Origin: Tissierellia bacterium
GTDB lineage: Bacteria; Bacillota; Clostridia; Tissierellales; Sedimentibacteraceae
Assembly (NCBI GenBank): GCA_028709465.1
Contig: JAQVWY010000008.1
Location: forward strand, 1-49,378
DNA length: 49,378 bases
Reading direction: 5' to 3'
The stretch's first letter is position 1; each line of letters starts with the position of its first letter. Below, one piece after another: positions 6,837-23,356 of the stretch. The notes under the pieces are model-generated. The model worked only from the letters and a program-made list of their open reading frames with translations. It was not told where the DNA came from and did no database searches. Both the position numbers and the translations under genes were made by a program.

Positions 6837-7003
6837 CCTTTTTTCATAAAATATGAGTTCCTTTACATTTGGTTAATAATTTATATGTAATAATTAAATA
6901 TGTAACATAAATAAAGAATTTTAAATATTAAAAACATAATTTTTATATTTGCATATATTAATTATTATCAAGCAATTTAAAATTGAAAGGTGGGCTTATT
7001 TTA

Positions 7004-7552
7004 ATGCTATATGCAAGAAATAAAAAAAATAATAAAAATAATGCACATAAATCATATCGTGCCCTAAATATGCATGCTAAAAAATCTAAAGATTATAATG
7101 AAATAAAAGTAAACAATGTGCCTACACCTGAAGTAGAAATTCCAGAAAATTCTGAATTAGGTTATCTAGCCGTTGGTGTTTATACAGCACTAGGTGCTTT
7201 ACCAGTAAAAGATGCCGTTGTAACTGTTTATACAATTGATGAAAACGGAGAAGAAGTAGCTCTATATCATCTAATTACAGATATTAATGGAAGAATTCCT
7301 AATGTTGAATTACCAGTTGCATATATACCAGGTTCTCAATTAGAAAGTCCTGAATATTTTTACACTAAATATAATATGAGAGTACAAGCAGAAAATTATA
7401 ATACTTTTAATGTTCGTGAAATTCGAATATTTCCTAACATAACAACAGATTATAATGTAAATCTTGTACCAATGCTTCCCGGCACACCAGAAAAATTAAA
7501 AGAATATAATATTATAATTCCGCCAAGTCCAATCGACGAATCAAATGTATGA
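7004..7552 (+). CDS. SleC prodomain-like protein encoded as a separate gene
   Basis: A 182-residue protein. I recognise the core (residues ~40-150: 'GYLAVGVYTALGALPVKDAVVTVYT..ENGE', a DING turn, 'YNMRVQAENYNTFNVREIRIFPN') as similar to the N-terminal prodomain of the clostridial cortex-lytic enzyme SleC, a carboxypeptidase-regulatory-like beta fold. It ends with a Pro-rich tail ('PGTPEKLKEYNIIIPPSP') like the SleC linker. Residues 1-30 are Lys/Asn-rich, with no signal peptide. The start is the ATG at 7004, since the upstream TTG frame would translate the AAAGGTGG site. The next gene begins 15 bases downstream and encodes the SleC catalytic part without a prodomain. No sigma-A promoter is obvious; CATATATT at 6952-6959 could be a sporulation-type -10. 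The match is from memory of SleC. Confidence 0.72.
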   Translation: MLYARNKKNNKNNAHKSYRALNMHAKKSKDYNEIKVNNVPTPEVEIPENSELGYLAVGVYTALGALPVKDAVVTVYTIDENGEEVALYHLITDINGRIPNVELPVAYIPGSQLESPEYFYTKYNMRVQAENYNTFNVREIRIFPNITTDYNVNLVPMLPGTPEKLKEYNIIIPPSPIDESNV

Positions 7553-7567
7553 AATGAGGTGATAAAC

Positions 7568-8977
7568 ATGAGTATATTTATTCCTGGATTAACAACAGTT
7601 GCAATACCAGAAAGCATTACCGTTCATTTAGGTGCTCCTGACCAACCTGCTGCAAATGTTACAGTACCTTATATTGATTATATAAAAAATGTAGCATCTA
7701 GTGAATTATACCCCACATGGCCAGAAAGTGCTCTTAGAGCTAATATATATGCTATTAATTCCATAGCATTAAATAGAGTGTTTACTGAATGGTATAGAAG
7801 TAAGGGATATGATTTTGATATAACAAATACAACCCAATTTGACCAGGCTTATGTACATAACAGAGGTATATTTGATAATATCAGCAGAATTGTCGACCAA
7901 ATATTTGATGAATATATAATAAGACAAGGTCAAATACAACCTCTTTATGCTACATACTGTGATGGCCGTGTGGCTCAATGTAATGGACTATATCAGTGGG
8001 GAACGGTTGGCTTAGCAGAGCAAGGCTATGTACCTTATGATATATTAACATACTATTATGGAAATGATATAAATATCGCTACTGATACACCTATCGCTGG
8101 AGCAGGAGAAACATTTCCAGGGGATCTAGACCTTGGAGACAGCGGCCCATATGTTTTTTTTATTCAAACAGCTTTAAACACCATATCAGTTAACTATCCT
8201 GCAATTCCAAAAATAAATCCCGTAGATGGAATATTTAATACTCCTACTGAATCTGCAGTTAAAAAATTTCAGGAAATATTTGGTTTGCCTGTAACAGGAG
8301 TTGTAGACAAAGGAACTTGGTATAAAATAAGGCAGATATATTCCGCCGTAAGAAAATTAGCTGAACTTTCTTCTGTAGGAATATTAGCTGGTGAACTTCC
8401 TGAAAGATTACCATTAGAAGGAGGGGCGGTTGTTCCTCGAATTCAGATTGTTCAATATTTTATTAATGTTTTGTCAGCTTATTACTCATCAATTCCCCCT
8501 GTAGATATCGATGGAATAATGGGCCCTGCAACTAGGTCTGCTATCATTGAATATCAAAAAACAATGGGGCTACCTGTAACGGGTATGTTAGATGATGAAA
8601 CTTGGCTATCAATGTATAACAATATAGTAGGAATATTAACTACAATACCTCCATCAGCAATTGCTTTGCCAGCTCTTATATATCCTAATATTGTTTACAG
8701 CTTAGGATCAGAAGGTCCTGGTGTCTATTTAATACAACAATATTTAGCCTTTATATCAACTATTTTAACAGACATACCTGCGGTAACTCCAGATGGAGTT
8801 TTTGGAGAAAGTACTAAAGCTGCGGTAATTGCCTTTCAAAAACAATTTAATCTTACGCCAGATGGTATAGTTGGCCGAGAAACATGGAATAAAATTGTTG
8901 ATGTATATAGAGATTTAAGATTTGGTGAAAGAAGAACAGCAGGGCAATTTCCTGGAGGCGAGATAGGAGGAGCTTAA
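7568..8977 (+). CDS. SleC-like spore cortex-lytic enzyme with three peptidoglycan-binding repeats (copy 1)
   Basis: A 469-residue protein. Residues ~25-180 are a SpoIID-like catalytic domain very close to SleC: 'YIDYIKNVASSELYPTWPE', 'NRVFTEWYRSKGYDF', 'YCDGRVAQCNGLYQWG' and 'ILTYYYGNDI'. Glu46 in VASSEL is the expected catalytic acid. Three PG_binding_1 repeats follow at ~190-265, 285-360 and 377-455, each with a DG-x-(F/M)G/N turn and a closing G..(D/G)..TW ('GVVDKGTWYKI', 'GMLDDETWLSM', 'GIVGRETWNKI'). Known SleC enzymes, as I recall, have one such repeat. There is no signal peptide, as in SleC, which acts on cortex peptidoglycan at germination. The start is the ATG at 7568 behind GAGGTGA; a GTG at 7559 lies in that site. 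The usual N-terminal prodomain is missing. Confidence 0.88.
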   Translation: MSIFIPGLTTVAIPESITVHLGAPDQPAANVTVPYIDYIKNVASSELYPTWPESALRANIYAINSIALNRVFTEWYRSKGYDFDITNTTQFDQAYVHNRGIFDNISRIVDQIFDEYIIRQGQIQPLYATYCDGRVAQCNGLYQWGTVGLAEQGYVPYDILTYYYGNDINIATDTPIAGAGETFPGDLDLGDSGPYVFFIQTALNTISVNYPAIPKINPVDGIFNTPTESAVKKFQEIFGLPVTGVVDKGTWYKIRQIYSAVRKLAELSSVGILAGELPERLPLEGGAVVPRIQIVQYFINVLSAYYSSIPPVDIDGIMGPATRSAIIEYQKTMGLPVTGMLDDETWLSMYNNIVGILTTIPPSAIALPALIYPNIVYSLGSEGPGVYLIQQYLAFISTILTDIPAVTPDGVFGESTKAAVIAFQKQFNLTPDGIVGRETWNKIVDVYRDLRFGERRTAGQFPGGEIGGA

Positions 8978-8978
8978 A

Positions 8979-10403
8979 TTGTCAATAGTTCCAGGTTTAA
9001 CACATGTTATTTTACCAGAAAACATTACCGTTCATTTGGGAAGGCCCGATGAAGAAGCAGAAAATGTTACTGTGCCATTTATTGATTATATTAAAAATGT
9101 TGCTTCCAGCGAATTGTATCCTACATGGCCGGAAAATGCTCTTATAGCAAATATATACGCCATTACTTCTATTGCATTAAACAGAATTTTTACTCAATGG
9201 TATAGATCAAGAGGATATAATTTTGATATAACAAACACCACCCAATATGATCAAGCATATGTTCATAATAGAGGTATATTTGATAATATATCATCAATAG
9301 TTGATAAAATATTTAGCCATTATATAAGGAGACAAGGCCGTATAGAACCATTTTATGCTCAGTTTTGTGATGGGCGAATTTCTCAATGCGATGGAATGTA
9401 TCAATGGGGAAGCGTTGACTTAGCTAATCAAGGATATAGCCCCCTTGAAATATTGCAATATTATTATGGAAGTGACATAGAAATTGTAACAGATGCTATT
9501 CGTCAAGATTTTACAACTATTTATCGTGGTGAGCCATTATCCTTAGGTGATACAGGGCTAGACGTTATGATTATGCAATTTGCATTAAACAGAATATCTA
9601 ATAATTTCCCTGCAATTCCTAAAATATATACGATTAATGGAGTATTCGATGAGGTTACAGAATCGGCGGTAAGAGAATTTCAAAAGATATTTAATTTAGA
9701 AGCAAATGGTATTATAGATCAAGGTACATGGTATAAAGTGAGAAGTATATATAATGCAGTTACTAAAATAGCAGAATTAGCATCAGCAGCACCTTTATAT
9801 GCAGATATATCTCGTTATTTTGAAGCAGTATTAATTGAAGGTTTTGAAGGTCCCCGTGTTCAGCTTTTACAATACTTTTTAAATGTATTATCTACATTTT
9901 ACAGTGCAATACCTTCAGTAGATATTAATGGATACTTTGGGCCTGAAACTAGAGAAGCTGTAATGGAATTTCAGAAAGTCATGAATTTACCTGTGTCAGG
10001 TTTAATAGACGATGCTACTTGGGATGCTATGTATAATGCTATATTAAGAATATTAGTTACACTTCCCCCAGAATCAGTTATGCTTCCAAGCTTTAAGTAT
10101 CCTGGAATAATTTTTACTAGAGGTATGGGTACAGAACAACCTGGTGTATTAATTATTCAAGAACTTCTAGCATATATTTCTTCAAGAATTCCTGAAATCA
10201 CATATGTTCCTTATAATCTAGTAGATGGAGTATTTGGTCCAATTACTGAGTCAGCTGTCATAACATTTCAAGAATATTTTGGATTAGAGCCTACTGGAAT
10301 AGTTGATGAAACTACTTGGCTGAAGCTAGTAGAAGTGTATCGAGAATTAAGATACAGTGGTAATGTTAATAATAACACTAATGGTACAAATAAAAATATA
10401 TAA
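8979..10403 (+). CDS. SleC-like spore cortex-lytic enzyme with three peptidoglycan-binding repeats (copy 2)
   Basis: A 474-residue paralogue of the preceding gene, nearly collinear over its whole length ('YIDYIKNVASSELYPTWPENAL', 'YNFDITNTTQYDQAYVHNRGIFDNIS', 'FCDGRISQCDGMYQWGSVDLA'). Glu45 is the expected catalytic residue. Three PG_binding_1 repeats lie at ~190-265, 285-360 and 375-460. The third carries a short insertion ('PEITYVPYNLVDGVFG'), and the C-terminus ends in an Asn/Thr-rich tail. It starts with TTG at 8979, one base after the TAA of copy 1, behind TAGGAGG at 8964-8970, so the two are tightly coupled. The first ~20 residues align with copy 1, so the missing prodomain is a shared ancestral state and not a frameshift. 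A role in cortex degradation is inferred from family. Confidence 0.87.
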   Translation: MSIVPGLTHVILPENITVHLGRPDEEAENVTVPFIDYIKNVASSELYPTWPENALIANIYAITSIALNRIFTQWYRSRGYNFDITNTTQYDQAYVHNRGIFDNISSIVDKIFSHYIRRQGRIEPFYAQFCDGRISQCDGMYQWGSVDLANQGYSPLEILQYYYGSDIEIVTDAIRQDFTTIYRGEPLSLGDTGLDVMIMQFALNRISNNFPAIPKIYTINGVFDEVTESAVREFQKIFNLEANGIIDQGTWYKVRSIYNAVTKIAELASAAPLYADISRYFEAVLIEGFEGPRVQLLQYFLNVLSTFYSAIPSVDINGYFGPETREAVMEFQKVMNLPVSGLIDDATWDAMYNAILRILVTLPPESVMLPSFKYPGIIFTRGMGTEQPGVLIIQELLAYISSRIPEITYVPYNLVDGVFGPITESAVITFQEYFGLEPTGIVDETTWLKLVEVYRELRYSGNVNNNTNGTNKNI

Positions 10404-10439
10404 ATTGCTTATTTTTCTTTTTATGAATTGGAGGTATAT

Positions 10440-10970
10440 ATGCATAACATAAGTAATGAATTTATAAAAAATCCTGTAATGGAAATACAATTGTATTTAA
10501 GAGAAATTGCACAGTGTAAGCCAGAAATTCCCATGATATATCCAAATGGAATATTTGACGCAAAAACAAAAGAAGCTGTGATTGCATTTCAAAAAATTTA
10601 TAATATACCACCTACTGGAAAAGTTGATTTAACAACATGGAACGCTTTAGTCAATGAAGATCGTCTGTGCTATATTAAAAATAAACCTGGTAGTCCTAAT
10701 AGAATATCCATATTTCCCAATAATAATCATACATGTAAGCTAGGGGACGAATGTGATATAGTTTATGTAATACAAATATTACTTAATAATATTGGGAAAA
10801 AATACAAAAATGACATAATCAACATTACAGGCAAATATGATGCTGAAACAGAAGAAGCTGTAAAAAAGTTTCAAAAATCAAATATGCTAAATATTACAGG
10901 AATTGTAGATTTAGAAACTTGGAATTCTTTAGCACATATTAATAACACATGTGGCTTTTACAGTATGTAA
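10440..10970 (+). CDS. Protein made of two peptidoglycan-binding domains
   Basis: A 176-residue protein with two PG_binding_1 domains and no catalytic domain. The first (~8-70) runs from 'VMEIQLYLREIAQCKPEIP' to 'TGKVDLTTWNAL'. The second (~95-165) runs from 'CDIVYVIQILLNNIGKKY' to 'TGIVDLETWNSL'. No signal peptide is present. Four cysteines (in IAQCKP, RLCYI, HTCKLGDEC and NTCGF contexts) are unusual for this fold and could crosslink in the spore coat. The start is the ATG at 10440; the earlier TTG frame would consume the GGAGG site at 10430-10434. It is the fourth gene of the locus and looks like an accessory wall-binding part. The function is inferred. Confidence 0.82.
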   Translation: MHNISNEFIKNPVMEIQLYLREIAQCKPEIPMIYPNGIFDAKTKEAVIAFQKIYNIPPTGKVDLTTWNALVNEDRLCYIKNKPGSPNRISIFPNNNHTCKLGDECDIVYVIQILLNNIGKKYKNDIINITGKYDAETEEAVKKFQKSNMLNITGIVDLETWNSLAHINNTCGFYSM

Positions 10971-20004: not shown

Positions 20005-22440
20005 CTAATTGTTAAACACTTTTTTTGCTATCTCTACTGCATCCTTTGCATCCTTTGCATAATAGTCAGCACCCATTTTCATTGCGTATTCTTCAGTTAA
20101 AACGGCTCCTCCAACAACTATTTTACACTTTAAACCATTTTCTCGAATAGAAATAATAGTTTCTTCCATGCTTCTCATTGTCGTAGTCATTAAAGCGCTT
20201 AACCCTACTAATATTGGCTCGTCATATTTTTTAGCTTCTTCAATCACTTTTTCAATTGGAACATCCTTTCCAAGGTCTATAATTTCATAGTTGTAATTTT
20301 CAAGTATAACCTTTACTATGTTTTTACCTATATCATGAATGTCACCCTTAACTGTGCATAAAATAATTTTACCATTAGATATTGATTGGGTTGCCTTACT
20401 TTTCAAATTTTCCTTTAATACTTCAAAGGCTGCCTTAACAGTTTCTGCAGATTGAATAAGCTGTGGCAGAAAAATAACACCTTTTTCATATTCATCTCCA
20501 ACAATATCTAAGGCAGGTATCAGATATTTATTTACGATAATAAGAGCATCATTATTTTTCAGCATCTTATTTACAATTATTATGGTATCATTTTTCAAGC
20601 CTTTAACTACACAGTCTATTAACCCTAATTCGTTATCTTCTTTAATTATTTTTGTTACAGTTTTTATTTCTTTTTCTATTTCTGACTCTTTAATCTTTAA
20701 TGATTTATCAACTTTCTCGACTTGGTCTGATGTAAATTTTTTTATATATTTCTTTGAACCCTCATCAAAATTATATAAAACATTAAAGGCAAAAATTTTA
20801 TCCATCATAGATTCATCATTTGGATTTATAATAGGCAAATCTAATCCTGCAGCCAATGCAATAGTTAAAAATGTTTCATTAATTAAAGCTCTGTTTGGCA
20901 TGCCAAAAGATATGTTGGAAACTCCTAATACAGTTTTTACACCTAGCTTTTCTTTTACTAGAGTTAAAGATTTAATAGTTTCAACAACCTCTTTTTGTTG
21001 AGCAGAACAAGTTAATGTTAATGTGTCTATATAAACATCTTCTCTTTTTATTCCATAACTTTCTGCCTTGTTAACAATGTGTTCTGCTATTTTGTATCTA
21101 TCATATGCATTGTTTGGTATTCCCTTATCGTCTAAGGTAAGTCCAACTACAGCTGCTCCATATTTTTTTACCAGAGGTAATATTTTATCAAGAATTCTAT
21201 CTTCACCATTGACCGAATTTAATATAGGCTTTCCATTGTAATATTTAAGCCCTTTTTCAATAGCTTCAAAATTAGATGAATCTATTTGCAATGGAACATT
21301 AGTTACACCTTGGAGTTTTTTAATTACTTTAACCATCATTTTTGCTTCATCTATTCCAGGCAATCCAACATTAACATCTAATACATGTGCTCCGGCTTCA
21401 ACTTGAGAAATACCCTGTTTTAAAATATAATCAATATCATTATTCTTAAGGGCTTCCTTAAATAATTTTTTACCAGTAGGATTAATTCTCTCTCCTATAA
21501 CCTTGACACCATGCACTACAACGGTATTGCTTGGGGAACATAATGCTGATATTTTATTATAACTTAATAAAGCAGGTTTTAAACCCTGCAATTTTTCTTT
21601 CATACATCTAATGTATTCTGGATTCGTACCACAGCAGCCCCCAACCATTCTTACACCTAGTTTAACAAATTTAGTAACAATTTCAGAATATTGTTCCGGA
21701 GAAACATCATAATATGTTTCATTGTTCCTAACAACTGGAAGCCCCGCATTTGCTTGTACTAGAATTGGAGTATTTGTATATTTCAGAAGTTCTTCAACAA
21801 TTGGATATATTTCATGCGGACCTAATGAACAGTTTATTCCAAGACCATCTACACCTAATCCTTCTAAAGTAATTGCCATACTGCTTGGCAAACATCCAGT
21901 AAAAGTTCTGTGATCTTTTTCAAATGACATAGTTGCTACAACTGGAAGATTGGAATTTTCTTTTGCTGCCAACACTGCGGCTTTTGTTTCATATAAATCA
22001 GTCATTGTTTCTATTAATATTAAATCAGCACCTGATTTAACCCCTTGAACAACCTGTCTTTTGAAAATTTCATATGCCCTGTCAAAGGATAATGTGCCCA
22101 TTGGCTCAATAAGTTCACCAATTGGACCAATATCTAATGCTACATAAACATGCCTTTCTTTTGCAGCAGCCTGTGCAGTTTTTATTGATTCATGGATAAT
22201 TCTCTCAACAGTATATCCTGTATCCTTAAGCTTTAACTCATTTGCTCCAAAGGTATTTGTAGTGATTACTATAGAACCAGCAGCAATATACTCATTATGG
22301 ATTTCAATAATTTTTTCTTTTTCAGTTATATTTAATATTTCTGGAACTTCTCCTAATTTTAGTCCCTTTTTCTGAAGCATTGTTCCCATTGCCCCATCAA
22401 AAATAACAATATTATCTTTTAAATATTCCTTAAAATTCAT
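20005..22440 (-). CDS. metH: Cobalamin-dependent methionine synthase lacking the activation domain
   Basis: An 811-residue enzyme that moves a methyl group from methyltetrahydrofolate through cobalamin to homocysteine. Residues ~1-300 are the homocysteine domain ('ILIETMTDLYETKAAV', 'GINCSLGP', and 'VGGCCGTNPEYI' with zinc cysteines). Residues ~315-570 are the pterin-binding barrel ('VIGERINPTGKK', 'LDVNVGLPGIDEA', 'SNISFGMP'). Residues ~590-811 are the B12 cap and Rossmann domain ('DIHDIGKNIV' with the cobalt-ligating His, then 'VGLSALMTTTMRSM' and 'VVGGAVLTEEYA'). The AdoMet-binding reactivation domain (about 330 residues in E. coli MetH) is absent, as in many anaerobes. The gene follows metF by 10 bases. 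Confidence 0.96.
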   Translation of the reverse strand: MNFKEYLKDNIVIFDGAMGTMLQKKGLKLGEVPEILNITEKEKIIEIHNEYIAAGSIVITTNTFGANELKLKDTGYTVERIIHESIKTAQAAAKERHVYVALDIGPIGELIEPMGTLSFDRAYEIFKRQVVQGVKSGADLILIETMTDLYETKAAVLAAKENSNLPVVATMSFEKDHRTFTGCLPSSMAITLEGLGVDGLGINCSLGPHEIYPIVEELLKYTNTPILVQANAGLPVVRNNETYYDVSPEQYSEIVTKFVKLGVRMVGGCCGTNPEYIRCMKEKLQGLKPALLSYNKISALCSPSNTVVVHGVKVIGERINPTGKKLFKEALKNNDIDYILKQGISQVEAGAHVLDVNVGLPGIDEAKMMVKVIKKLQGVTNVPLQIDSSNFEAIEKGLKYYNGKPILNSVNGEDRILDKILPLVKKYGAAVVGLTLDDKGIPNNAYDRYKIAEHIVNKAESYGIKREDVYIDTLTLTCSAQQKEVVETIKSLTLVKEKLGVKTVLGVSNISFGMPNRALINETFLTIALAAGLDLPIINPNDESMMDKIFAFNVLYNFDEGSKKYIKKFTSDQVEKVDKSLKIKESEIEKEIKTVTKIIKEDNELGLIDCVVKGLKNDTIIIVNKMLKNNDALIIVNKYLIPALDIVGDEYEKGVIFLPQLIQSAETVKAAFEVLKENLKSKATQSISNGKIILCTVKGDIHDIGKNIVKVILENYNYEIIDLGKDVPIEKVIEEAKKYDEPILVGLSALMTTTMRSMEETIISIRENGLKCKIVVGGAVLTEEYAMKMGADYYAKDAKDAVEIAKKVFNN

Positions 22441-22450
22441 ACATACCTCA

Positions 22451-23329
22451 CTAATCTCTGTTTACAGAATGAATTATTTGAATGATGTTATCATGTGTCT
22501 TTCTAGCAACATATGGATTGTTCATAGTATAAAGATGTATTCCATCAACACCCATAGTAATTAAATCTATAATTTGCTCTGTTGCATATGCAATACCTGC
22601 ATCCATCATCGCTTCAGAATCATGTGCAAATTTATCCATTATTTTAAAATACTTATCTGGTATTTTAGATCCGCTCAATGTTGCAATTCTCGCTATTTGC
22701 TTGTTATTAGTTAAAGGCATAATACCTGCTTCTATTGGAACATTAATGTTATATTTTTTAGTTAAATCTAAAAATTTATAAAAGTCATTATTATCATAAA
22801 AAAGCTGACTTATTAAGTGAGTAACTCCAGCATCAATTTTATATTTTAAATTTTTAACATCTTCTTCTAAACTTTTACAATCCATATGACCTTCTGGATA
22901 ACATGTGCCACCTAAATCAAAACGCCCGTGTTTTTTAATAAATTTTACTAAATCGGAAGCATAACTAAAATCACCCTTCACTTCATCTTCTAAGGGTATG
23001 TCTCCCCTTAAAGCTAAAATATTTTCTATGCCGTCCTGTTCTAATTCCTCTAATATTTGTTTTATTTCATCTTTTGTTGATCTTATACAAGTTAGATGAG
23101 CAACTGATTCAATCCCATATTTATTTTTTACTAAGGATGATAACTCTCTAGTTTTGTTTTGATTGCTACCTCCCCCAGCACCATACGTAACACTTATAAA
23201 ATCAGGTCTCAAATCACTTAATGCTTCTAATGTTTTATATATAGTATTAACCGATGATGTTGCTTTTGGTGGAAATATTTCAAATGAAAATACTAACTTT
23301 TTTTTATTAAAAATTTCTCTTATATGCAT
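22451..23329 (-). CDS. metF: Methylenetetrahydrofolate reductase
   Basis: A 292-residue FAD barrel enzyme that reduces methylene-THF to methyl-THF, the methyl donor for the adjacent MetH. Motifs are 'FSFEIFPPKA', 'FISVTYGAGG', 'HLTCIRST', 'NILALRGDIP', 'TCYPEGHMD' and 'VTHLISQLFYDN'. Length fits bacterial MetF. I choose the ATG at 23329, eight bases after GGAGGGG; a GTG at 23338 would sit on that site. It is first in metF-metH-ispA. No B12 or SAM riboswitch fits in the upstream region. Confidence 0.95.
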   Translation of the reverse strand: MHIREIFNKKKLVFSFEIFPPKATSSVNTIYKTLEALSDLRPDFISVTYGAGGGSNQNKTRELSSLVKNKYGIESVAHLTCIRSTKDEIKQILEELEQDGIENILALRGDIPLEDEVKGDFSYASDLVKFIKKHGRFDLGGTCYPEGHMDCKSLEEDVKNLKYKIDAGVTHLISQLFYDNNDFYKFLDLTKKYNINVPIEAGIMPLTNNKQIARIATLSGSKIPDKYFKIMDKFAHDSEAMMDAGIAYATEQIIDLITMGVDGIHLYTMNNPYVARKTHDNIIQIIHSVNRD

Positions 23330-23356
23330 ATCTACCACCCCTCCGTAGTTTTTGCT

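Follow-up and report, generated by a model that had tools for sequence, protein, structure and literature searches.

A SleC-like enzyme and a SleC pre domain encoded by separate genes in Sedimentibacteraceae and other Clostridia

How would a spore former open its cortex if it encodes SleC in two separate genes and Csp is not found in its genome? The control of SleC is so far known from Csp-bearing species. The question is raised here by a locus of a Tissierellia bacterium of the family Sedimentibacteraceae (GCA_028709465.1, contig JAQVWY010000008.1, positions 1 to 49,378; this whole 49,378-nt stretch of DNA is referred to as the window). Its split operon is a concrete candidate for cortex breaking in spore formers in which Csp was not found, many of which also showed no SleB/CwlJ-type hydrolase.

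Locus layout and the part of SleC that is split off

On the forward strand of the window, the gene for a stand-alone SleC pre-domain protein of 182 aa (7004..7552) is followed by genes for two SleC-like enzymes (7568..8977 and 8979..10403, 58% identical) and for an accessory protein in which domain search found two PG_binding_1 repeats (10428..10970). The ORF program called the frame of enzyme 1 from GTG 7559. Both enzymes have a SpoIID-type catalytic domain, with a Pfam score only just over the cut-off, and then three PG_binding_1 repeats. This is the order seen in SleC, but unlike in canonical SleC the pre/pro region is not on the same polypeptide. The sequence-only reading had described these two genes as the SleC catalytic domain without a prodomain, and the domains and the alignment to SleC (PDB 9h68) confirmed this. 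Elsewhere in the window, on the minus strand, a cobalamin-type methionine synthase gene adjoins a methylenetetrahydrofolate reductase gene (20005-23338).

The same reading had likened the 182-aa protein to the N-terminal prodomain of SleC. Homology to SleC held by profile, alignment and fold; the match is to the pre domain, not to the propeptide. In sequence and fold the protein corresponds to the pre domain of C. difficile SleC, which spans residue 1 to about residue 121 and is removed by YabG in sporulation; in native numbering SRQS lies within 117-121 and the cut falls after R119 (PMC6464247). Alignment places SRQS at chain positions 175-178 of 9h68, giving an offset of 57 for the chain numbering. 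The stand-alone family aligns in sequence to chain 55-178, and the structural alignment of the window pre-domain model with 9h68 spans residues 0-133 (entry numbering). Since this structural match stops at residue 133, the stand-alone protein can include no more of the propeptide than its first part. Predicted alone, the protein forms a transthyretin-like beta sandwich (residues 50-171) with flexible tails, and this fold aligns to the 9h68 pre domain. Membership in Transthyretin/HIUase (PF00576) was rejected at 13.3 bits against a curated cut-off of 25.3, the fold class being the same.

The enzyme match to 9h68 starts at chain 216, about residue 159, and by eye its leading residues could extend the match back to about residue 150. 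The first residue of mature C. perfringens SleC is 150. From its sequence, the enzyme gene product would roughly correspond to mature SleC, and neither gene encodes the SleC stretch that runs from about residue 134 up to the mature enzyme. Judged by alignment coordinates, this locus showed no propeptide with a Csp cut site that would link the pre domain to the mature enzyme. Because the stand-alone family aligns to the YabG-removed pre sequence, "prodomain" should here read "pre domain": the separate domain is the SleC pre domain, the YabG target, and not the inhibitory propeptide removed by Csp. In a C. difficile yabG mutant, germinant addition still activates preproSleC (PMC6464247), which means that the pre domain is not necessarily what keeps the enzyme locked.

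We then compared the split form with known systems. Canonical SleC of C. difficile and C. perfringens (PDB 9h68) is alike in pre-domain fold, SpoIID-type catalytic domain and PG_binding_1; it is a single chain with one PG-binding domain and a propeptide that Csp cleaves, whereas the window system has pre domain and enzyme in separate genes, lacks the joining stretch, carries three PG repeats and comes from a genome where Csp was not found. SpoIID/LytB lytic transglycosylases share the catalytic domain family; SpoIID is an engulfment enzyme, not a wall-repeat protein, and its domain set differs from that of split SleC. The nearest printed relatives found are SleC2a and SleC2b of C. botulinum Group II, with a SpoIID/LytB domain and 4-5 PG-binding domains (PMC5083711). 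They share with the split form the possession of several PG-binding domains, as do fused relatives of the split set (loci L081 and L082, four each), but they are single polypeptides annotated as pre-pro with a putative role, and the available parts of PMC5083711 mention no split form. SleB, a cortex-lytic enzyme thought to be held by the separate partner protein YpeB (PMC13393411), offers an analogy only, enzyme and partner both being unrelated to those of split SleC. No description of a split SleC was found in the accessible parts of the open-licence articles searched, among them PMC3567191, PMC3533761, PMC12445089, PMC5083711, PMC6464247, PMC6021603, PMC7490687, PMC8953710 and PMC6199464.

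Spread and descent of the split form

The pre-domain family occurs in 26 of the 27 genomes of the window's family. A catalytic profile (E <= 1e-15) matched 25 of the 249 genomes of its order, all 25 in that family. The source genome has three enzyme copies, two in the window and one on contig C133; none of the copies found is fused. It also has four pre-domain genes, one in the window and three without a neighbouring enzyme (contigs C113, C82 and C106).

A scan of named genomes gave at least 589 confirmed relatives, and the best 80 loci were analysed. The record titles of most of the loci name Oscillospiraceae, Ruminococcus or unplaced Clostridia. By script, 74 of these best 80 of at least 589 had the pre domain in a gene of its own no more than 150 nt from the enzyme; the split order, which the sequence-only reading had proposed looking for in related genomes, is not confined to the window. 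The script classed the remaining loci as one fused (L182, Angelakisella massiliensis), two without a pre-domain gene upstream (L153, L217) and three cut by a contig edge (L154, L155, L190). Inspection by eye found the enzyme alone in L153. In L217 a pre-domain gene does stand upstream, the enzyme start having been set too far upstream, and L154 has a pre-domain gene, a three-repeat gene, the enzyme and, further along, a two-repeat gene. A two-repeat gene lies directly downstream of the enzyme in 40 of these best 80 of at least 589 loci. The same order was present in the one annotated clostridial record inspected, that of Monoglobus pectinilyticus, where a pre-domain gene (E = 8.7e-20) labelled "hypothetical protein" precedes an enzyme labelled "peptidoglycan-binding protein". 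A pre-domain search of plasmids gave no match; a more sensitive profile later matched the Monoglobus record.

The operons vary in their parts. In several Sedimentibacter operons one tandem enzyme has no catalytic domain and is now a 295-305-aa protein with three PG_binding repeats. Such a three-repeat protein sits between the pre-domain gene and an intact enzyme at L095 5031-5948 and L154 1972-2859, and other genomes have similar open frames of 287-316 aa.

We aligned 102 of 104 catalytic rows, dropping L154_3 and L162_737 as too short. The Glu of the VASSE motif (residue 49, counted from GTG 7559), which by analogy to SpoIID we take to be the catalytic residue, is kept in 99 of the 102 domains, both window enzymes included. 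It is replaced by Gln in L084 (5069-6433, minus strand) and by Ile in L081 (1009-3180, minus strand) and L162 (2542-3903, plus strand), and these SleC-like copies are possibly inactive paralogues. In the tree of the 102 domains, the split set excludes the canonical SleC of genome G003 (98/69) and contains the fused proteins L182, L081 and L082, which form a group with the split L205 (97/86). This nesting suggests that the three were re-fused from a split ancestor, in a tree with rough support (the bootstrap had not settled), a midpoint root, a canonical row that joins the long Priestia branch, and a long L081 branch. The Priestia megaterium plasmid NZ_CP109860.1 (L235 2812-4674) encodes a Bacilli protein whose SleC-like catalytic domain (33% identity) lies far away from the clostridial ones.

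Csp, other lytic enzymes and spore genes

Csp proteases have been placed in Clostridiaceae, Lachnospiraceae and Peptostreptococcaceae (PMC7490687, discussion). In the source genome, which is 97% complete, Csp was not found, making activation without Csp, as the sequence-only reading had put forward, a plausible course. The genome gave two S8 peptidase matches only: one of 391 aa, like ordinary subtilases, reached 54 bits against the Csp model versus 468 for G003, and the other, truncated at a contig start, was not among the matches to that model. Across the window's family, Csp was found in 1 of 27 genomes, G003 alone (468 bits), where ORFs of 565 and 567 aa (the size of Csp-type S8 proteases) adjoin a 427-aa SleC of the canonical fused type (1.6e-133 to 9h68). 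G003, a genome of the window's genus, has this Csp and fused SleC (L149 2709-7410) alongside split operons; both systems thus coexist there. With the same model (E <= 1e-20), none of 50 genomes from the best 80 named loci gave Csp; 47 of them are split by script, one is split by eye (L154), one is cut by a contig edge (L155) and one is fused (L182). Fourteen control genomes were silent in this search, so G003 is the positive control for the model. Csp was likewise not found in the genomes with the multi-repeat fused forms of G011, G014 and L182, indicating that its absence tracks the whole non-canonical branch and not the split alone, and that fusion and Csp do not fully go together.

SleB, SpoIVA and GerA searches covered the genomes of 46 of the best 80 named loci. 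PF07486 (SleB/CwlJ) was not found in the source genome; it was present in 16 and not found in 11 of the 27 family genomes, and present in 21 and not found in 25 of the 46 named genomes, so the split enzyme is not the sole candidate in the genomes that have it. MAG incompleteness limits every such absence, of Csp and of PF07486 alike. The cleanest genomes with neither are G025 (99% complete, 2 contigs) and G026 (98%, 1 contig). SpoIVA was found in 66 of 73 genomes, made up of 25 of 27 in the family (the source genome among them) and 41 of 46 named genomes. Of 63 genomes searched for a GerA-family gene, 60 had one, the source genome included. By eye, genes like GerB and GerC lie next to the GerA-family gene in G000, G025 and G026; this arrangement holds for the source genome. 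When the tables were read across, SpoIVA was present in 22 of the 25 named genomes that lacked a PF07486 match, and Csp was found in none of them; a cortex-lytic enzyme of some other kind is therefore expected there. Many anaerobes with sporulation genes appear to carry SleC as two proteins with the activating protease not found, which makes their route of spore opening a testable question.

We also evaluated the timing of expression. A candidate late-sporulation promoter precedes the window operon (6934..6960, plus strand), reading AC - 16 nt - CATATATTA. Its CATAnnnTA box, which we take to be a sigma-K/E type element, lies 47 to 61 nt ahead of the start codon in all five family transcription units of the source genome. 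It occurs at 2 of 70 control ORF starts scanned from about -70 to -40 (Fisher p = 1.2e-6) and at 2 of 41 control starts with intergenic sequence upstream (Fisher p = 1.5e-5), p values to be read with the fact that the pattern was chosen after these same sequences had been inspected. AC stands 16 nt upstream of the box in two of the five units. The box was near the start in relatives L088, L091 and L094 and was not found there in most other relatives checked; a sigma-G pattern was found at none of 18 starts. We infer late expression of the operon in the mother cell, driven by a sigma-K-type promoter.

Possible roles of the pre-domain protein and the enzymes

We consider it somewhat probable that these genes form a Csp-independent split branch of the SleC family with the pre domain acting in trans. 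The sequences show one conserved operon with genes for a SleC pre-domain protein and for one or two enzymes beginning about where mature SleC begins, each with three wall-binding repeats, joined in about half of the loci by a gene for a two-repeat wall-binding protein. The proteins would presumably be deposited at the outer cortex and would hydrolyse cortex in germination triggered by GerA-type receptors. With less assurance, the pre-domain protein may bind the enzymes non-covalently and do in trans the job done in cis, whether folding, targeting or holding, and activation may come by release of the partner or by access to the cortex, not by Csp cleavage. The operon order fits one pre-domain protein serving two enzymes, and a role as trans inhibitor, proposed from the sequence alone, is possible. 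More tentatively, and more probably wrong than right, the system might be a non-covalent SleC zymogen: the pre-domain protein would fold, target and hold the prodomain-less enzyme or enzymes inactive in trans until germination frees them without Csp, and many gut and environmental Clostridia that do not belong to the Csp-using groups would open their cortex mainly in this way. The pre-domain protein is in any case a testable partner, and in the split operon nature would have divided a zymogen over two genes.

That the two proteins are linked at all is argued by the operon order and by the natural fusions of both parts inside the split radiation (L182, L081 and L082). The structure model of the fused L182 protein, the one model with both parts, was of low confidence (pLDDT 65.9, pTM 0.35). 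Against a physical partnership count the pre-domain genes that have no enzyme as neighbour and, in C. difficile, the activation of preproSleC left uncut in the yabG mutant (PMC6464247). A mirror-tree pairing test on 79 pairs gave no support, the true pairing ranking 42 of 48 within-genome swaps, with an overall matrix correlation of 0.22 against a maximum of 0.38 in 2000 permutations. This lack of signal would suit a pre-domain protein that is a structural or targeting protein of the spore coat or cortex, having only ancestry and expression in common with the enzymes and no part in their regulation. The same account draws on genome G021 of the family, with as many as 10 pre-domain matches, and on the source genome, where three of the four pre-domain genes stand apart from enzymes with the same kind of -10 box as the operons, so that the domain may have unrelated jobs. 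We judge it unlikely, given that the pre-domain gene lies directly upstream of the enzyme at 74 of the best 80 of at least 589 named loci and that the two are one protein in L182, L081, L082 and canonical SleC.

A different possibility is that the enzymes serve mother-cell lysis or cortex remodelling in sporulation and not germination. The sigma-K-type boxes are compatible with both roles, several catalytic copies occur per genome (8 matches in G021, for example), and no Csp system was found that would keep the enzymes silent. However, SleC, the closest characterised relative, is a germination enzyme (PMC3567191), and the SpoIVA-bearing genomes that showed neither PF07486 nor Csp speak for a germination role, SleL-type enzymes being outside that search; we regard a purely sporulation role as quite improbable. 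A broken or frameshifted SleC gene, or an assembly error, has next to no probability. In the window the pre-domain gene and enzyme 1 do share a reading frame across a 15-nt gap, but enzyme 1 has a ribosome-binding site of its own, and among 72 other pre-domain/enzyme pairs a crude pattern found an SD-like motif in 37. In these 72 pairs from named loci the frame offsets 0, 1 and 2 occur 26, 24 and 22 times, and all three stop codons are in use. Frameshift or read-through is thereby ruled out for the family, and with the split conserved across families the exclusion of a recent frameshift made in the sequence-only reading stands.

The pre-domain proteins differ in their tails. Most of those from Sedimentibacter operons finish with a conserved sequence similar to IIPPSPxDISN, two of the orphan proteins of the source genome end in HPRD, and the tail is not conserved in other families. 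In three genomes a pre-domain gene is convergent with, and adjoins, a SleB/CwlJ-type hydrolase gene (G024:C1 about 2488889-2489831, G019:C4 about 52673-53546 and G014:C396 about 2049-2861).
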